Shown piece by piece: positions 11,289-18,178 of a stretch of DNA of 64,000 bases. This DNA is from an uncultured Opitutia bacterium (GTDB lineage: Bacteria; Verrucomicrobiota; Verrucomicrobiia; Opitutales; Opitutaceae). The notes under the pieces were generated by a model. The model saw only the letters and a program-made list of their open reading frames with translations. It was not told the DNA's origin and did no database searches. The stretch's first letter is position 1; each line of letters opens with the position of its first letter. The position numbers were made by a program, and so were the translations under genes. The DNA lies in NCBI GenBank assembly GCA_903839035.1, contig CAIMAQ010000079.1, positions 1 to 64,000 of the forward strand, written 5' to 3'.

Positions 11289-12518
11289 ATGCCTCGTTTT
11301 TCCTACAGCGCCCGTGACCGTGCCGGCAAGGCCGTCACCGACACGCTCGAGGCGCCGAGCCGCAAGGACGCTCTTCGGCTCCTCGCCGCGCGCGGGTTGC
11401 AGGTCTCCGCGGTGAATGAAACCGGCGCGGGCGCGGGTCCGGCGCGGCAGGTGGTGACCGTCGACACCCGCGTCATCACCCTCAGCCGAAAACAGCGGCT
11501 GCCCTTTCTCGAGGCCCTGCGCGACCTTGTCACCAGCGGCATGTCCGCCGGCGAGGCCGTGCGCCTCCTCTCGGTCCGCATCAAGGACCCCGGGCTGCGG
11601 CTGCTCAGCGTGGGCCTCTGGGAGCGACTCAGCGAGGGCGCCCCGCTCTCGCGGGCGATGGCGGCGTTCCCGGCGGTGTTCGACTCCTCGACCATCAGCC
11701 TGATCCAGGCGGGCGAGGCCACGGGCTCGCTGGCCGACACGCTGGAGCGCCTGATTGCGCATCTCAACGAGCAGCGGGACCTCCGCACCCAGCTGCTGAC
11801 CGCGCTCGCCTATCCGTGCCTGCTGATGGTTGTGGCCGGCGGCCTCGTGCTGTTCTTCCTGTTCTTCCTGCTGCCGCGGTTGCAGGCGCTGTTCAACTCC
11901 CTCCACGGCGAACTCCCGCTCTCCACGCGCCTGCTCGTCGCCGGCTCCAGCTTTGCCCTGCATTTCGGCATTTTCATCGTGATCGCCGCGGTGCTGGGCG
12001 CCATCTCGCTCTGGCGCTGGCGGCAGACGGACGCCGGCCGCGAGGCGACCGACGCGTGGCTGCTCCGTGTGCCGCTTGCCGGGCCGTTCGCGGTTTCGCA
12101 GACCGTCCTGGCGTTCAGCCAGACGCTCGGTGTGCTGCTGGCCAACGGCATCACGGCAGCCGACGCTCTGCGCATGACCGAGCGCCAGATCGGCAACCGG
12201 GTGCACCGCCGGGCGTTCCATGACGCGACCGACCGCGTGCTCGAGGGCGAGGCGCTTTCCACGGCCCTCGCGCGCACGGGCTGCTTTCCCGACCTGGTCC
12301 TCGACCGTCTCGCCGTCGGCGAGAACACCGGCAACATCGTGCCGAGCCTCCGCGAGATCGCCCGCAACTATCAGCGCATCATCTCCAGCCAGCTGAACCT
12401 CTTCGTGAAGGTCATCGCGACCGTCGTGCTGCTGGCCGTGTTCGTCATCGTGGGCTTCATCGCCTTCGCGATCGTCAGCGCCGTCTTCAAGGTCAGCGCG
12501 AGCTTCAAGCTCGGTTAA
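11289..12518 (+). CDS. gspF: Type II secretion inner-membrane platform protein GspF
   Basis: 409 residues, normal for GspF/PilC. Two repeated cytoplasmic T2SSF domains (about 65-190 and 270-390) are separated by membrane segments near residues 170-200 (LLMVVAGGLVLFFLFFLLP) and 220-245, with a last one near 375-400. The N-terminus FSYSARDRAGKAVTDTLEA and the LIQAGEATGSLADTLERL motif are family hallmarks. It anchors the ATPase and pseudopilus at the inner membrane. It is last of the gspD-E-F block, with its stop 95 bp from the stop of the convergent gspM. Confidence 0.95.
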   Translation: MPRFSYSARDRAGKAVTDTLEAPSRKDALRLLAARGLQVSAVNETGAGAGPARQVVTVDTRVITLSRKQRLPFLEALRDLVTSGMSAGEAVRLLSVRIKDPGLRLLSVGLWERLSEGAPLSRAMAAFPAVFDSSTISLIQAGEATGSLADTLERLIAHLNEQRDLRTQLLTALAYPCLLMVVAGGLVLFFLFFLLPRLQALFNSLHGELPLSTRLLVAGSSFALHFGIFIVIAAVLGAISLWRWRQTDAGREATDAWLLRVPLAGPFAVSQTVLAFSQTLGVLLANGITAADALRMTERQIGNRVHRRAFHDATDRVLEGEALSTALARTGCFPDLVLDRLAVGENTGNIVPSLREIARNYQRIISSQLNLFVKVIATVVLLAVFVIVGFIAFAIVSAVFKVSASFKLG

Positions 12519-13144: not shown

Positions 13145-14283
13145 GAGGATGCGGCGGGCTTCAGCGCCTCGGGTCGGAAAGTGATGACGAGGGTGAACGT
13201 CATGAGGTTGTCGCGGGTGCGCTGGTCGCGCACCTCGACGGCCGCGCAGGCCGGCTGCTCGCCGAGGGCCGAGCGAAAGGCCGCCACGTCGCCGGGCGAG
13301 GTCGTCTGGGCGTCCACTGTCAGGGTGTAGAGCCCGCTGGTCGTCGCCCGGAGGAACTGGATCGTCGCGGGCTTCCGCTCACTGGCGGCCGAGAGCATTT
13401 CCAGCGGCAGGAGCCGCTGGGTGGAGAGTTCGTTGGTCCGCGTCGCCAGGCTTTGCGCCGTCATGATCTGGTCCACGACCGGCTGCTGCGCCGCGACCTT
13501 CGCCTCGCGGGTCCGTTGCCACACGCCTTCGCCCAGGAGGGCCACCAGACCCAGCAGCATCAAGCCCACGGCCGCGAAGCTGCCGATAAACAGCCGCCAG
13601 AGCAGCAGGTCGCGCCCCTGCGCCCGCCGCAGCGCCGCCAGCTCAGTCTTGTCGCGCACATCCATCGCGGCGGCCCGGCTGGCGGGCAGGCGCGATGCCA
13701 GCGCTTCGGCGTGAAACACAAATTCATCCCCGCCGCGCGCCATCGCCTCGGCCACCGGCGCTTCGGCCAGCTCCACCACCTGCTTGCTGCCGCCCGCCAG
13801 GCGCAACAACTCGTCCTTCACTTTGGCCTGGTCGGACTCGGTCGCCTCAGGTGGTAGCGCCCGGAAAAACACCCCCGCCGGCACCGGCCCGTTCTCCCAA
13901 TGCACCGCCGTGAGTCCACCGGCCGACGGCACCAACAGCGTCGTCGCGGGCTTGACCTCGAGTCCCAGCAGCGCGGCAAAGGCCGGCAGCACCAGCGCCG
14001 CGCGGTCCCACTCCGCGAGCTGCTCGCGTGTGAACCGCCGGCGATAGGCCGCAAAGACCAGCACGCGTTCCGCCCCGGGCGCCCAGAAAAATCCGTGATA
14101 GAGCTGCCCGGCGGGAAACGGCGAAATCCCCTCCAGCGCCAGCTCGGCCTGCATTGCCACCTCCGCCGGAGTCGCCCCGGCGGACACGGGAAACGCCCGC
14201 GTGAAAAACAGCGCGTCGGGCAGCAGCACCACCTTGGGTGCCCTTGCGCCGGTTGGGAGGAGTTTAAGGGACGGCGGGATCAT
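13141..14283 (-). CDS. gspL: GspL-like type II secretion protein (PilM/PilN-like)
   Basis: 380 residues. The cytoplasmic part (1-220) resembles the actin-like fold of GspL/PilM in length and layout. A single membrane segment lies at about 226-252, followed by a coiled-coil stretch and a ferredoxin-like periplasmic domain (about 310-380). GspL recruits the GspE ATPase to the membrane and pairs with GspM. The start ATG overlaps the gspK stop by 4 bp and the gspM start overlaps its own stop by 4 bp, so the three genes are translationally coupled. Confidence 0.78.
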   Translation of the reverse strand: MIPPSLKLLPTGARAPKVVLLPDALFFTRAFPVSAGATPAEVAMQAELALEGISPFPAGQLYHGFFWAPGAERVLVFAAYRRRFTREQLAEWDRAALVLPAFAALLGLEVKPATTLLVPSAGGLTAVHWENGPVPAGVFFRALPPEATESDQAKVKDELLRLAGGSKQVVELAEAPVAEAMARGGDEFVFHAEALASRLPASRAAAMDVRDKTELAALRRAQGRDLLLWRLFIGSFAAVGLMLLGLVALLGEGVWQRTREAKVAAQQPVVDQIMTAQSLATRTNELSTQRLLPLEMLSAASERKPATIQFLRATTSGLYTLTVDAQTTSPGDVAAFRSALGEQPACAAVEVRDQRTRDNLMTFTLVITFRPEALKPAASS

Positions 14284-15512
14284 GCGGCGGGCGGTGGAAC
14301 AGGTGACATGTCGGCATTTTCCCTAATTTCCAAGAGTGTAAATGGGGAGTTGAGCCGCGCAGCTGGAGTCACCGGGGCCACGGTGGGTCCGGTGGGCGCC
14401 GCCGAAGGAGGAGTGGTGCCATTGCCAGACGCGGCCTCGGTGGCGGAAGTTGCGGTCGATTTGACGATTGTCGCCCCGCCCGACGGCGCCACCACCGCGG
14501 TCAGCCGAAACTCCGAGCGGCCCTCGTGGATCGTGATGTTCACCCGCAGCGCCCGGATCTGCGCGCCGGCCAGCGGCGGCAGCGCACCCGAGCCCAGCAC
14601 AGCGGAGATGTCGCCGGTGGAGTTGAACCAGCGCGGCCCCTGCGACACGTACGCCCCGGTTCCGGCCAGGTAGTCGCTCACGCGCTGCTGTTGTGTGACA
14701 TCCGAGAACCCGAGCGCCAGGAACACATCCGGCGACGCGGCGTTCAGGTTGACCTGCGAAAAGTTGTAGAGGGAAAACGTCGCCTCAAACCGGCGGCCAA
14801 GGTCGCTGAGCCGCCCCTGGTCGTCGTAAAACACCTCGCGCGCGTAATCGATCGCCGCCAGCTCGGAGAAGGAGCGCAGTGAACGGCCGGGCGCGTTGTA
14901 CGGGATCGTCACCTGATCGTAGTCCGTCGGCTGGCCCGACGCCGGCACGTAGTCCTTCCGCATCCAGCCCAGCAGCGCGTCGGCCAGCCGCTGTGCGTCC
15001 GCCGGCGCCAGTTGCCACGCGTCGAACAGGTTCACCAGCGTCGCCGCATCCACGCGCGTCAGCGGGAGCTTGCCGCTCTCGTCCACCAGCGTGACCTCCG
15101 CCGTGCAACCCTCGCGCGGCGTCCAGCCGGCAAATCCCAGCGGATCACCCCATCCTTCCGCCGGGCTGTGCAAGCCGTTGTCGGCCTGACCGAAGCTCTG
15201 CAGCGTCGCGAGGGTGACCTCCAAGGCCGAGTAGGCCTCCTGCCGCAGGCGTTTCGCCGACGCGGCCCGCGCCTCGACCAGCAGGTCGCTGCTCGCCTGC
15301 TCGATGAACGCCACCAGCGCCACCGACGTGAACAACAGTGTGACCAGTACAATCACCAGCACGGAGGCCCGGTTGATACAGGCCGGTCGGGCGTGGGTTG
15401 CACGCTCGCGCGCAACGTTGCGTGCGAGCACGCAACCCACATCGGGAGAAATCGCCCCAGGGGTCCGTCCCCGGACGTCCCGTCGTCCGTAGTCTGCCTG
15501 AAGTCCCTTCAT
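14280..15512 (-). CDS. gspK: Type II secretion minor pseudopilin GspK
   Basis: 410 residues from the ATG at 15512, which follows the gspJ stop by one base. The hydrophobic prepilin helix (SVLVIVLVTLLFTSVALVAF) begins near residue 50, and the GspK alpha-domain insertion is visible (LNAASPDVFLALG). GspK caps the pseudopilus tip with GspI and GspJ. The leader of about 48 residues is encoded by a dispersed palindrome (15393-15440), so the true start may be a GTG nearer the helix. An Ala/Pro/Thr-rich tail ends the protein. It overlaps gspL by 4 bp. Confidence 0.85.
   Translation of the reverse strand: MKGLQADYGRRDVRGRTPGAISPDVGCVLARNVARERATHARPACINRASVLVIVLVTLLFTSVALVAFIEQASSDLLVEARAASAKRLRQEAYSALEVTLATLQSFGQADNGLHSPAEGWGDPLGFAGWTPREGCTAEVTLVDESGKLPLTRVDAATLVNLFDAWQLAPADAQRLADALLGWMRKDYVPASGQPTDYDQVTIPYNAPGRSLRSFSELAAIDYAREVFYDDQGRLSDLGRRFEATFSLYNFSQVNLNAASPDVFLALGFSDVTQQQRVSDYLAGTGAYVSQGPRWFNSTGDISAVLGSGALPPLAGAQIRALRVNITIHEGRSEFRLTAVVAPSGGATIVKSTATSATEAASGNGTTPPSAAPTGPTVAPVTPAARLNSPFTLLEIRENADMSPVPPPAA
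15393..15440. repeat. Dispersed palindrome, family B, copy 1 (inside gspK leader)
   Basis: Arms GTGGGTTGCACGCTCGCGCGC and GCGTGCGAGCACGCAACCCAC flank a central AACGTT. A second copy with the same outer arms GTGGGTTGC and GCAACCCAC and the same AACGTT centre is at 59363-59411, in intergenic DNA. The copy here encodes part of the gspK leader. Confidence 0.75.
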
Positions 15513-15513
15513 G

Positions 15514-16368
15514 CTAAAAATTCGGCAGCCCCTCCGTCGGCGTGGGCAGGGTGATGACGCTCTCCCGTTTCAATTTTCCGTAGGCAAACTTCAGCCGCAG
15601 CCGCTGCGGGGTCTGCAGCTGGCCGGACGCGTCCTTCCGGATAACCGGCTCCGTCTTCCAGGTCTTGAAATCAGCATCGTAATAGTCGTACGCCAGCGCG
15701 GTCACCAGCGGCGTGATGACCGTCTCGCGCGGCGGGTCGTCGTTGAACTTCGTCTCGAGCCGCGAGTGCCACAGCAGCACAAGCCCGTCGCGGTCCCGCG
15801 CCTGCAGCGAGCAGACCACCTCCGGCAGCGGCCGGTCGGGCCACACCAAGAGCCGGCTGCCGGCGGGCAGTTCGAAGGTAAGCAGGTTGTCCGTCGCACC
15901 GTTGAGCGGCTTGATTTCCTGCGGTGTGATCGGCGCGGTCCCGGCGGACGCCGCGGGTGGCAGGGCCGCGGCGTGCAGCTCCTGGTCGAGGTAACGCGTG
16001 ACCGCCCGCACATGCCGGTCGAACAGCCGCACGTCCGTGTTGCGCCCCCACAGCTCGCCCATCGAGAACACAAAGACATTGAGCGAAACCAGCACGAGCG
16101 CCGTCAGCGCCAGGGCGAGGAGGATTTCGAGCAACGTGAATCCGTTGCTCGCCACGCCGAAGCCAAACGGGCGCAGGCGGGCCAGCAGGGTACCTTTGTC
16201 GAGGTGGAGCGTGTTGCCCTCAACGCGGTTGCCTTGTGAAGGTAAAAATGGGGCTGGGGCGCCCTCGCCCCGTCTTAGCTCCAACCGCGGCGAGGGCGCC
16301 GCGGCCCCACCAAAACGCGTTGAGGGTACCGTATTCCACCCCGCAAAAATGGCCGGCTGCGCTTTCAT
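15514..16368 (-). CDS. gspJ: Type II secretion minor pseudopilin GspJ
   Basis: 284 residues. The prepilin cleavage motif NG|FTLLEILLALALTAL marks a pseudopilin, and the long beta-rich body (DPPRETVITPL, then a C-terminal LRLKFAYGKLKRE strand) fits GspJ, which sits at the pseudopilus tip. The start ATG at 16368 overlaps the gspI stop as ATGA, but it gives an unusually long 76-residue leader that contains a family A palindrome. A GTG at 16155 would give a five-residue leader (VASNG). The membrane helix follows the cleavage site directly. Confidence 0.85.
   Translation of the reverse strand: MKAQPAIFAGWNTVPSTRFGGAAAPSPRLELRRGEGAPAPFLPSQGNRVEGNTLHLDKGTLLARLRPFGFGVASNGFTLLEILLALALTALVLVSLNVFVFSMGELWGRNTDVRLFDRHVRAVTRYLDQELHAAALPPAASAGTAPITPQEIKPLNGATDNLLTFELPAGSRLLVWPDRPLPEVVCSLQARDRDGLVLLWHSRLETKFNDDPPRETVITPLVTALAYDYYDADFKTWKTEPVIRKDASGQLQTPQRLRLKFAYGKLKRESVITLPTPTEGLPNF
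16250..16308. repeat. Dispersed palindrome, family A, copy 1 (inside gspJ leader)
   Basis: Left arm GGGGCTGGGGCGCCCTCGCC (16250-16269) and right arm GGCGAGGGCGCCGCGGCCCC (16289-16308) are imperfect inverted repeats around CCGTCTTAGCTCCAACCGC. Other copies are at 17459-17517 and, in altered form, 47841-47897. Confidence 0.8.
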
Positions 16369-16931
16369 TGCGGCTTGTCCTTCCCCTGCAGCTTCGCAAT
16401 CCGGTCCTGCGCGTCCTGCTTCAGCTTGGTGTTCTCCGTCGGATCCGCCCAGGTCGGGCGCAGCACCGTGAAATTTTCCGTCACCGTCCGCGTCCCACCT
16501 CCGCTCGCGGACTCCGCCGCCAGCTCGCAGACAAACGTCACCGTGAAGAGGTCGGCCGTCGCCGTGGACGCGATTGTGGCGTGCCACCGCACCTGGCGTC
16601 CGCCCGGGGCCACAAAATCCCCGCCTTTCTCCGCCGTGTCGTGGTCGGGCTCGGCGAGCAGTTGCGCGCGGGCGAAGCGGACGTCCTCGTCGACCTGGTT
16701 GCCGCGCGCAGCCGTCTCGTAAGCGTTGAGGACATTCACATACGCCGAGCCGAGCACGACCGCCGCGAGCGCGAAAATCGCCAGCGCCACGATGACCTCC
16801 AGGAGTGTGAAGGCGCACCTCGCCACGCCATTCCGCCCTCTGTCGTTTCGCCCTGCGGAACGACAGAGAAAGTCCCGTCCAGCGGGACGAAGGTGGGCCG
16901 GCCCTACGAAGCCTTGGCGAAGGAGGGGCAT
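16365..16931 (-). CDS. gspI: Type II secretion minor pseudopilin GspI
   Basis: 188 residues from the ATG at 16931, one base after the gspH stop. The cleavage motif is CA|FTLLEVIVALAIFALAAVV, with Ala rather than Gly at position -1. The size and the conserved YVNVLNAYETAA after the helix fit GspI. The 40-residue leader is made of palindromic repeat DNA (16838-16926); a GTG at 16826 would give the five-residue leader VARCA. The stop overlaps the gspJ start by 4 bp. Confidence 0.83.
   Translation of the reverse strand: MPLLRQGFVGPAHLRPAGRDFLCRSAGRNDRGRNGVARCAFTLLEVIVALAIFALAAVVLGSAYVNVLNAYETAARGNQVDEDVRFARAQLLAEPDHDTAEKGGDFVAPGGRQVRWHATIASTATADLFTVTFVCELAAESASGGGTRTVTENFTVLRPTWADPTENTKLKQDAQDRIAKLQGKDKPQ
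16838..16926. repeat. Composite palindromes plus family C repeat (inside gspI leader)
   Basis: Three pieces in a row: a perfect 10-bp inverted repeat CTCTGTCGTT / AACGACAGAG (16838-16868), a 6-bp hairpin GTCCCG-TCCAG-CGGGAC (16872-16888), and the family C core CGAAGCCTTGGCGAAGGAGG (16907-16926), which recurs at 18017-18036 with one change. Confidence 0.75.
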
Positions 16932-16932
16932 G

Positions 16933-17571
16933 TCAGGGGTTCGCCTCCACGCGTGGGAGCACTTGCGCGCACGTCCATGGGTCAATGCTGAGCACCTTGG
17001 CCGCTCCGCCAGCCCGGAACTGCGCCCGGAACGGCGAGACCGTGCCGTCGGGATAAAACGTCACCGCCGGCACGGTCTTCGTGTCCACGAGTTCGCCTCC
17101 GATGAGCACCGAACTCTGGCCGGGCTGCGCCGACAGAAAATCCACCGTCAGGTCGCGCAGCGCCGGCACCGGGAGGGCCAGTGGCGAGGCCCCGTCATCC
17201 AGCACGAAGGCCTGTTGCTTGGGATCAAAGCTCAGCCGCACCTCGCGCTCGGCCGTGAGCGCCGCGGTGCGGGACTGCTGCACCGCCTGCCAGAAAACGG
17301 CCTCCGGTGTCGCTGGCTTGTCGCTGAGCAGGTTGACCGACCCCGTCACCAGCACCGCCGCGAGCAACCCCATCAGTGCGATGGCGAGCAGGATTTCCAG
17401 CAGCGTGAACGCGCGTTCGAGGTGGGGCGCGTTGTTCCGCACTCGCTGGTATACCTTTGGGGACGGGCCGCCCCCGCCCCGTCTAAGGCCCAACCGCGGC
17501 GAGGGCGCCGCGGCCCCATCCCCACCCAACGAGGGCCGAAAACGTGTCTCCACGGGGAGGAAGCCTACCAA
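16933..17571 (-). CDS. gspH: Type II secretion minor pseudopilin GspH
   Basis: 212 residues. The helix follows RA|FTLLEILLAIALMGLLAAVL; again Ala precedes Phe. The body (TAALTAEREVRLSFDPKQ, then GGAAKVLSIDPWTC) has the GspH/FimT pattern. The furthest start is a TTG at 17571 overlapping the gspG stop, giving a 54-residue leader that includes the family A palindrome at 17459-17517. A GTG at 17553 or at 17442 (leader VRNNAPHLERA) is also possible. GspH joins the pseudopilus shaft to its tip complex. Confidence 0.82.
   Translation of the reverse strand: MVGFLPVETRFRPSLGGDGAAAPSPRLGLRRGGGGPSPKVYQRVRNNAPHLERAFTLLEILLAIALMGLLAAVLVTGSVNLLSDKPATPEAVFWQAVQQSRTAALTAEREVRLSFDPKQQAFVLDDGASPLALPVPALRDLTVDFLSAQPGQSSVLIGGELVDTKTVPAVTFYPDGTVSPFRAQFRAGGAAKVLSIDPWTCAQVLPRVEANP
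17459..17517. repeat. Dispersed palindrome, family A, copy 2 (inside gspH leader)
   Basis: Right arm GGCGAGGGCGCCGCGGCCCC (17498-17517) is identical to that of copy 1. The left arm (17459-17478) is diverged but still complementary in its GC-rich core, and the centre CCGTCTAAGGCCCAACCGC matches copy 1 at most positions. Confidence 0.78.
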
Positions 17572-18119
17572 TTCCCAATATCGTCCGCCGTCCCGTCCTG
17601 CTTGTCGGGTCCCTTGGAATAAATGTCGTAGCCCTTGGGGTTATGCACGCCGGGGTACTTGTAAACGTACGGCTCACCCCAGGGATCGACCGGGAGCTTC
17701 GGATCGCTGAAATACGGCCCGCGCCATGACTCGGCCTTGCTCGCCGGCGCGGTGATCAACGCCTGCAGCCCCTCCGCCGTCGAGGGATAGTCGCCCATCG
17801 CGATGCGGTAGCTGCTGAGCGGCAGCTTGATGGATTCGCTCACGAACAGCTTGGCTGTCGTGCCCTGCGCGTTGCCAAAGATCGTGTCGAGATTGGTGAC
17901 CGCCAGCCCCACCAGCAGCGCCAGGATCGCCAGCGCGATCATGATCTCCAGCAGGGTGAACGCCCTGCTGGCCACGCTGGAGTTCCGCCAAACGGTTTGA
18001 GGGCGACCGTGCCCTCCGAAGCCTTGGCGGAGGAGGAAGGTGGGGCTGTTGGGGATATTGGAGTCCCGAAACCGTTTTGAAATCATCATGGCAGGCAAAA
18101 GGTTGGCGTCGCCGGGCAT
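17565..18119 (-). CDS. gspG: Type II secretion major pseudopilin GspG
   Basis: 184 residues from the ATG at 18119; a TTG at 18146, ATGs at 18089 and 18086, and a GTG at 17975 (leader VASRA) are alternatives. The cleavage motif is RA|FTLLEIMIALAILALLVGLAV. GspG hallmarks follow: YPSTAEGLQALITAP, WRGPYFSDPKLPVDPWG, and the C-terminal calcium-site region YDIYSKGPDKQDGTADDIGNW (quoted only as landmarks). It forms the pseudopilus shaft and is the first gene of the G-H-I-J-K-L-M block. The leader contains a family C repeat. Confidence 0.93.
   Translation of the reverse strand: MPGDANLLPAMMISKRFRDSNIPNSPTFLLRQGFGGHGRPQTVWRNSSVASRAFTLLEIMIALAILALLVGLAVTNLDTIFGNAQGTTAKLFVSESIKLPLSSYRIAMGDYPSTAEGLQALITAPASKAESWRGPYFSDPKLPVDPWGEPYVYKYPGVHNPKGYDIYSKGPDKQDGTADDIGNW
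18017..18036. repeat. Family C repeat, copy 2 (inside gspG leader)
   Basis: CGAAGCCTTGGCGGAGGAGG, differing at one position from the copy at 16907-16926. It encodes the LLRQGFGG part of the gspG leader; the gspI leader has LLRQGFVG from the other copy. Confidence 0.7.
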
Positions 18120-18178
18120 GGATGTCGAGACGCCCGCTGTGGCCAAAAGTTGCCCGGATGAGGAACGTCCAAGGGCGT

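Follow-up and report, generated by a model that had tools for sequence, protein, structure and literature searches.

In a 64,000-nucleotide stretch of DNA from an uncultured freshwater Opitutia bacterium of the family Opitutaceae (the window; contig C79 of a genome of 3.39 Mb in 126 contigs), the five consecutive pseudopilin genes in an operon for type II secretion, gspG, gspH, gspI, gspJ and gspK, very probably encode long, translated leaders that, judging from sequence comparison, arose by in-frame insertion of coding palindromes. The genes lie on the minus strand, from 18.1 to 14.3 kb, and each leader holds a palindrome: family C in gspG and gspI, family A in gspH and gspJ, and family B in gspK. 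In all five genes, small dispersed palindromes would have inserted into the DNA that encodes the leader, downstream of the original start codon, which in gspI, gspJ and gspK is coupled to the preceding stop, and upstream of the prepilin peptidase site. The insertions and later indels to survive would have been those that kept the frame and carried no stop. The leaders of the resulting prepseudopilins would be hydrophilic, rich in Arg and about 40 to 76 residues long, and would be expected to remain in the cytoplasm until removed by the single prepilin peptidase found in the genome. Since the mature proteins would be unchanged, the leader residues could drift almost freely.

An earlier note on this DNA had placed one repeat in each of the five leaders and described leader regions of about 40 to 76 codons that stay open in frame upstream of every cleavage site. 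Coordinates, genes and repeats all proved correct, as did the open frames; the likely gspG start is now a conserved ATGATG, and the gspK cut is now placed, with probability, after Ala. The leader-coding regions and the elements within them are as follows (a slash marks the cleavage site).

17961-18089, minus strand: gspG leader-coding region, conserved ATGATG to A/F, 43/42 codons
17985-18036, minus strand: family C repeat of the gspG leader, core 18011-18032, 1 mismatch to the core, folding z-score -2.8
17410-17553, minus strand: gspH leader-coding region from GTG 17553, 48 codons, alternative start TTG 17571
17458-17519, minus strand: family A palindrome of the gspH leader, in common with relative L042, folding z-score -1.4
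16812-16931, minus strand: gspI leader-coding region, ATG 16931 to A/F, 40 codons, as against 4-5 for the majority of genus relatives
16901-16922, minus strand: family C core of the gspI leader, 1 mismatch, folding z-score of the C region -1.6
16838-16892, minus strand: two more hairpins in the leader of gspI, one of 14+14 nt (16838-16868) and the other the D unit (16871-16892)
16141-16368, minus strand: gspJ leader-coding region, ATG 16368 to G/F, 76 codons
16249-16309, minus strand: family A palindrome of the gspJ leader, with further copies in the genome, folding z-score -4.7
16195-16348, minus strand: larger unit around the gspJ family A palindrome, with outer inverted arms (16195-16230 and 16313-16348) of 36 nt that are 72% complementary
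15366-15512, minus strand: gspK leader-coding region, ATG 15512 to RA/S, 49 codons
15393-15440, minus strand: family B palindrome of the gspK leader, near-perfect, 24+24 nt, in common with relative L039, folding z-score -6.2

The 24-nt core of family A is identical between the gspH and gspJ copies, and matches to the A, B and C cores arose by chance in none of 100 shuffles of the window. Compared with shuffled sequence, the family B palindrome and the gspJ copy of family A form strong hairpins; the gspH copy of family A and the family C region of gspI are unremarkable. The D unit of the gspI leader, CTTCGTCCCGCTGGACGGGACT, is repeat-like and was considered as a dispersed family of its own, a status rejected because the genome has just one more copy, a weak one; for that reason it looks local to pseudopilin leaders, where it was perhaps spread by recombination.

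Translation through the repeats, one of two options raised in the earlier note, is favoured because starts pinned to an upstream stop share the frame of the cleavage site, at which the conserved F-T-L-L-E helix begins, over many leader lengths and because that frame is free of stops. In the window, as the earlier note had described, the starts of gspI, gspJ and gspK touch the preceding stop: ATG 16931 begins one base past the gspH stop, ATG 16368 overlaps the gspI stop as ATGA, and ATG 15512 begins one base past the gspJ stop. Among the relatives (freshwater Opitutae known from metagenome-assembled genomes, or MAGs; about 50 in the comparison of leaders), an NTGA start overlapping the gspI TGA occurs in 38 genomes and is in frame with the gspJ cleavage site in every one of them, including all 20 in which the linker exceeds 60 nt, even though the shortest leader has 5 codons and the longest 118 and 30 distinct lengths occur among 40 genomes; gspK leaders show 22 distinct lengths. 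ATG codons beside the upstream stop are likewise in frame in 33/33 cases for gspJ, 29/29 for gspK, 26/27 for gspI and 15/17 for gspH. Linkers longer than 60 nt in gspJ and gspK together contain no stop in 1637 codons of the core frame, as against 60 in the other two frames (14 and 15 in gspJ, 8 and 23 in gspK). Comparison across genomes thus brings out a constraint on both frame and stops.

The likely start of gspG is the conserved ATGATG at 18089/18086 rather than the furthest TTG. The motif GCGGGCGTCTCGACATC lies upstream of an in-frame gspG ATG in all 16 genomes in which it was found; 13 of the 16 have 15-20 codons between this ATG and the cleavage site, and the other three, the window, L039 and L042, have 36-43. 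In the window the motif occupies 18121-18137 of the minus strand. It recurs in 15 relatives, with 87 to 171 nt separating it from the gspG cleavage site downstream, and is perhaps part of a promoter or 5' untranslated region. At the other end of the leaders, gspK is probably cleaved after Ala (RA/SVLVIV) and not ahead of it.

The position of the insertions is clearest in gspI. Five relatives (L042, L040, L043, L055 and L050) have an empty site in which TGACATG is followed by two codons, Gly or Ala and then F-T-L-L-E, making a leader of 4 residues. After the same TGACATG there are 108 extra bases in the window, 120 in L039 and 60 in L041 (36, 40 and 20 codons), and because TGACATG and the cleavage site are kept on either side, the insert is placed downstream of the ancestral start with a length that is a multiple of three. 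Several relatives also have gspK leaders of 8 residues. The earlier note had reasoned that short leaders in related genomes would count against long translated ones; short leaders are indeed common among the relatives compared, but they act as empty sites which show insertion after the start.

Once inserted, the elements appear to have diverged under little constraint on their residues. The ratio of nonsynonymous to synonymous change per site (pN/pS) of the leaders is about 0.4-1.0 in seven pairwise comparisons, and that of the mature parts is about 0.06-0.16 for gspG, gspH, gspI and gspJ and about 0.37 for gspK. Near-free residues together with a kept frame and no stops are what would be expected if the leader were discarded after translation. 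A later round of change may be recorded in gspJ of L039 and L042, where an 'RG-FT' stretch remains as a relic ahead of another unit, which ends at the present cleavage site; in L039 a near-identical direct repeat of 13 bases flanks this unit. The arrangement of these sequences suggests that one insertion fell within the codons of the cleavage site and created the site anew. The same feature was noted at positions 16141-16205 of the window.

The second option of the earlier note, by which the repeats would be untranslated inter-cistronic linkers of the repetitive extragenic palindromic (REP) type and translation would begin at GTG codons that lie 5-11 residues ahead of the cleavage site, is very unlikely. 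The GTGs that the note had pointed out do exist in four genes (at 17975, 17442, 16826 and 16155, respectively 5, 11, 5 and 5 codons ahead of the gspG, gspH, gspI and gspJ cleavage sites), two of them as follows.

17973-17975, minus strand: GTG of gspG, 5 codons ahead of the cleavage site, ATG in L039 and absent in most relatives
16153-16155, minus strand: GTG of gspJ, 5 codons ahead of the cleavage site

The linker explanation also draws on Shine-Dalgarno-like AAGG and GAGG ahead of the gspH and gspI GTGs, on the mostly intergenic position of family A and B copies elsewhere in the genome and on the caution that many N-terminal REPs may go untranslated (Di Nocera et al. 2013, PMC3733652). It is opposed by upstream starts that are in frame over many lengths and by the stop-free core frame of gspJ and gspK. 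Moreover, gspK has no such GTG, the gspH linker of L042 matches that of the window in length and frame yet has no GTG at -11, and, family-wide, 15 of 30 long gspI, gspJ and gspK leaders have no ATG, GTG or TTG within 24 codons of the cleavage site.

The same GTGs could instead serve as second starts, giving a long form translated through the repeat and a short form, as in Geobacter PilA, with its leaders of 10 and 29 residues (PMC6201914). Both starts are in frame in gspG, gspH, gspI and gspJ of the window, and the matches ahead of the gspH and gspI GTGs, weak as they are, fit this arrangement as well. Dual starts are nevertheless highly improbable: the internal GTG is unconserved and absent in most relatives, and the stretch holding it in gspG and gspJ is common to only three aligned genomes, the gspJ position recurring only in L039 and L042 among the aligned genus relatives. 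GTG 17975 of gspG is probably an internal Val codon. At gspJ, AAGGA stands nine bases upstream of ATG 16368 and the GTG has no Shine-Dalgarno-like match; gspI has such matches at both its ATG and its GTG.

Several observations weigh against translation of the repeats as long leaders. The window gspH has no in-frame ATG, which leaves its start uncertain between GTG 17553 and TTG 17571, and gspH is also the weakest gene in the comparison of frames, with 4 core-frame stops in its linkers versus 23 and 30 in the other frames. Shine-Dalgarno-like matches are modestly enriched at the gspI and gspJ starts and not at those of gspK, and they occur, weakly, at the gspI and gspH GTGs close to the cleavage site. 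The pN/pS values were rejected as proof of translation, near-neutral values being unable to separate translated from untranslated sequence. Finally, the 38 gspJ and 29 gspK cases share ancestry and are not independent; their lengths differ, however, and many separate frame-keeping changes therefore took place despite this kinship.

The elements of the leaders belong to families that are dispersed through the genome. Searches with core patterns of 22-25 nt, allowing up to 3 mismatches and so undercounting diverged copies, matched family A in 14 places, family B in 13 rows (two of which are one palindrome on both strands) and family C in 11, and a reversed control pattern had no match in the genome at the same settings. 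These amount to about 36 distinct near-core copies in 3.39 Mb, and the 2.7-kb operon holds 5 of them where 0.03 would be expected. According to a home-made codon-usage gene caller, which errs at some loci (L204 is intergenic on inspection), families A and B are mostly intergenic outside the operon and family C is often inside genes. Copies of family C are in frame within the genes for the TatD DNase, a MenE-like ligase, RsmB and MnmA (L201, L203, L207 and L208), and one of family A within that for a SpoU rRNA methylase (L176), all in the same genome; for family B, an in-frame copy was seen in gspK alone. Two further family C copies (L202 and L209) appear by eye to adjoin the 3' ends of tRNA genes.

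The family C core is present in 43 of 95 relatives searched, with up to 42 matches in a single genome. Leaders of the relatives also hold repeats dispersed in their own genomes, most clearly family A in L041 gspJ and family B in L039 gspK. Other kinds of repeat fill the gspH and gspJ leaders of L043 and L055 as well, where tandem-like SAVSDQRSAI and IQSKIQNPKSKI are seen together with a VILNEVKNP unit. The elements may be mobile, and two Y1_Tnp genes (IS200-like, or of the REP-associated tyrosine transposase (RAYT) type) occur in the genome at G000:C70:5990-6322 and G000:C57:25688-25909 (L212 and L213). No copy of family A, B or C with up to 3 mismatches flanks either of them, the nearest being a family B copy 6 kb away, and no GTAG tag was seen by eye at the ends of the elements, the borders of which are only roughly defined.

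That metagenome assembly misplaced the repeats is extremely unlikely. The genus-level sequences come from MAGs, and assembly readily goes wrong at repeats, but the same repeats occupy the same leader sites in independent MAGs: family A in gspH of L042, and family B in gspK and family C in gspI of L039. Selection of the hairpins as RNA elements that tune the five cistrons, with longer leaders as a by-product, is decidedly improbable. The strong family A and B hairpins at cistron borders and the excess of elements in one operon speak for it; against it, the type and presence of elements are unconserved, some relatives carry different repeats, most genus relatives have the 4-residue gspI leader and several the 8-residue gspK leader, and translating ribosomes would melt the hairpins.

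Tolerance of insertions in translated leaders accounts for the survival of elements, not for their excess in the operon over ordinary intergenic DNA. A stronger proposal, that pseudopilin leaders of the Opitutaceae are a preferred landing site for palindromes and that their elongation has come to serve a function, such as setting the rate of membrane insertion, processing by the peptidase or the ratio among the five pseudopilins, is rather unlikely. As a rough control based on motif-picked gene pairs, the median linker is 73 nt in the Opitutaceae versus 26 nt in other phyla.

The mature regions of the five genes are the following.

17565-17960, minus strand: gspG mature pseudopilin region, Pfam T2SSG (6e-28) and N_methyl
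16933-17409, minus strand: gspH mature pseudopilin region, Pfam GspH (3e-4) and N_methyl
16365-16811, minus strand: gspI mature pseudopilin region, N_methyl, identified also by operon position and by tblastn in relatives
15514-16140, minus strand: gspJ mature pseudopilin region, N_methyl, identified also by tblastn in relatives
14280-15365, minus strand: gspK mature region, Pfam T2SSK_1st (3e-8)

Pfam searches of the operon found T2SSG, GspH and T2SSK, with N_methyl in gspG, gspH, gspI and gspJ; gspK is without N_methyl but has T2SSK_1st, and the order gspGHIJK is the same in relatives. The genome has one Peptidase_A24 match (58.7 bits), the family assignment of which is the ground for expecting that the long leaders would be removed. 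The remaining N_methyl genes of the genome have leaders of mostly 7-20 residues without repeats A, B or C. Matches to Rfam within the window are confined to tRNAs. On the opposite strand, a gspF-like gene (T2SSF; 11289-12518, plus strand) lies past gspM and faces the gsp operon.

Whether N-terminal repeats are translated is a question that can be answered here by comparison, because both ends of the leader are held in place, the start by an upstream stop and the far end by a fixed cleavage site. The findings suggest that class III leaders, being cleaved off, offer selfish palindromes an expendable stretch of coding sequence in which to build up with the mature protein untouched, and that the prepilin peptidase and membrane targeting tolerate leaders several-fold longer than usual; they also advise caution with automatic annotation of start sites in such operons. 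The ingredients are known, and it is their combination, palindromes like those of Rickettsia and the intragenic REPs of Opitutus terrae within class III signal peptides, that is apparently undescribed: a literature search of partial coverage turned up no account of pseudopilin leaders filled by such elements.

Of the systems that invite comparison, PilA of Geobacter sulfurreducens has two candidate starts, and its longer leader is still cleaved; its leaders are shorter, the available part of the source mentions no repeats in them (PMC6201914), and a short form is unsupported by conservation in the present genes. The intragenic REPs of Opitutus terrae, the species in which GTAG copies are most numerous, are short palindromes in coding genes of the same bacterial family, many of them N-terminal, and it is doubtful whether many of the N-terminal copies of other species are translated; at the ends of the elements described here no GTAG tag was seen by eye, and secretion leaders are not mentioned in the accessible portion of that study (PMC3733652). 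Class III leaders are cytoplasmic, variable in length and cut by prepilin peptidase (PMC10191384), with 6-7 residues in type IVa and 15-30 in type IVb pilins (PMC4376143). The present leaders share with them their hydrophilic character, the Gly or Ala before F-T-L-L-E and the N_methyl motif, and differ in being 40-76 residues long and largely repeat-derived. A parallel in kind may be drawn with the Rickettsia palindromic elements (RPE), which are in-frame, translated palindromes in protein genes (PMC2229807). Both are in-frame palindromes in conserved genes; here, several elements share one cleaved leader position in five consecutive genes.

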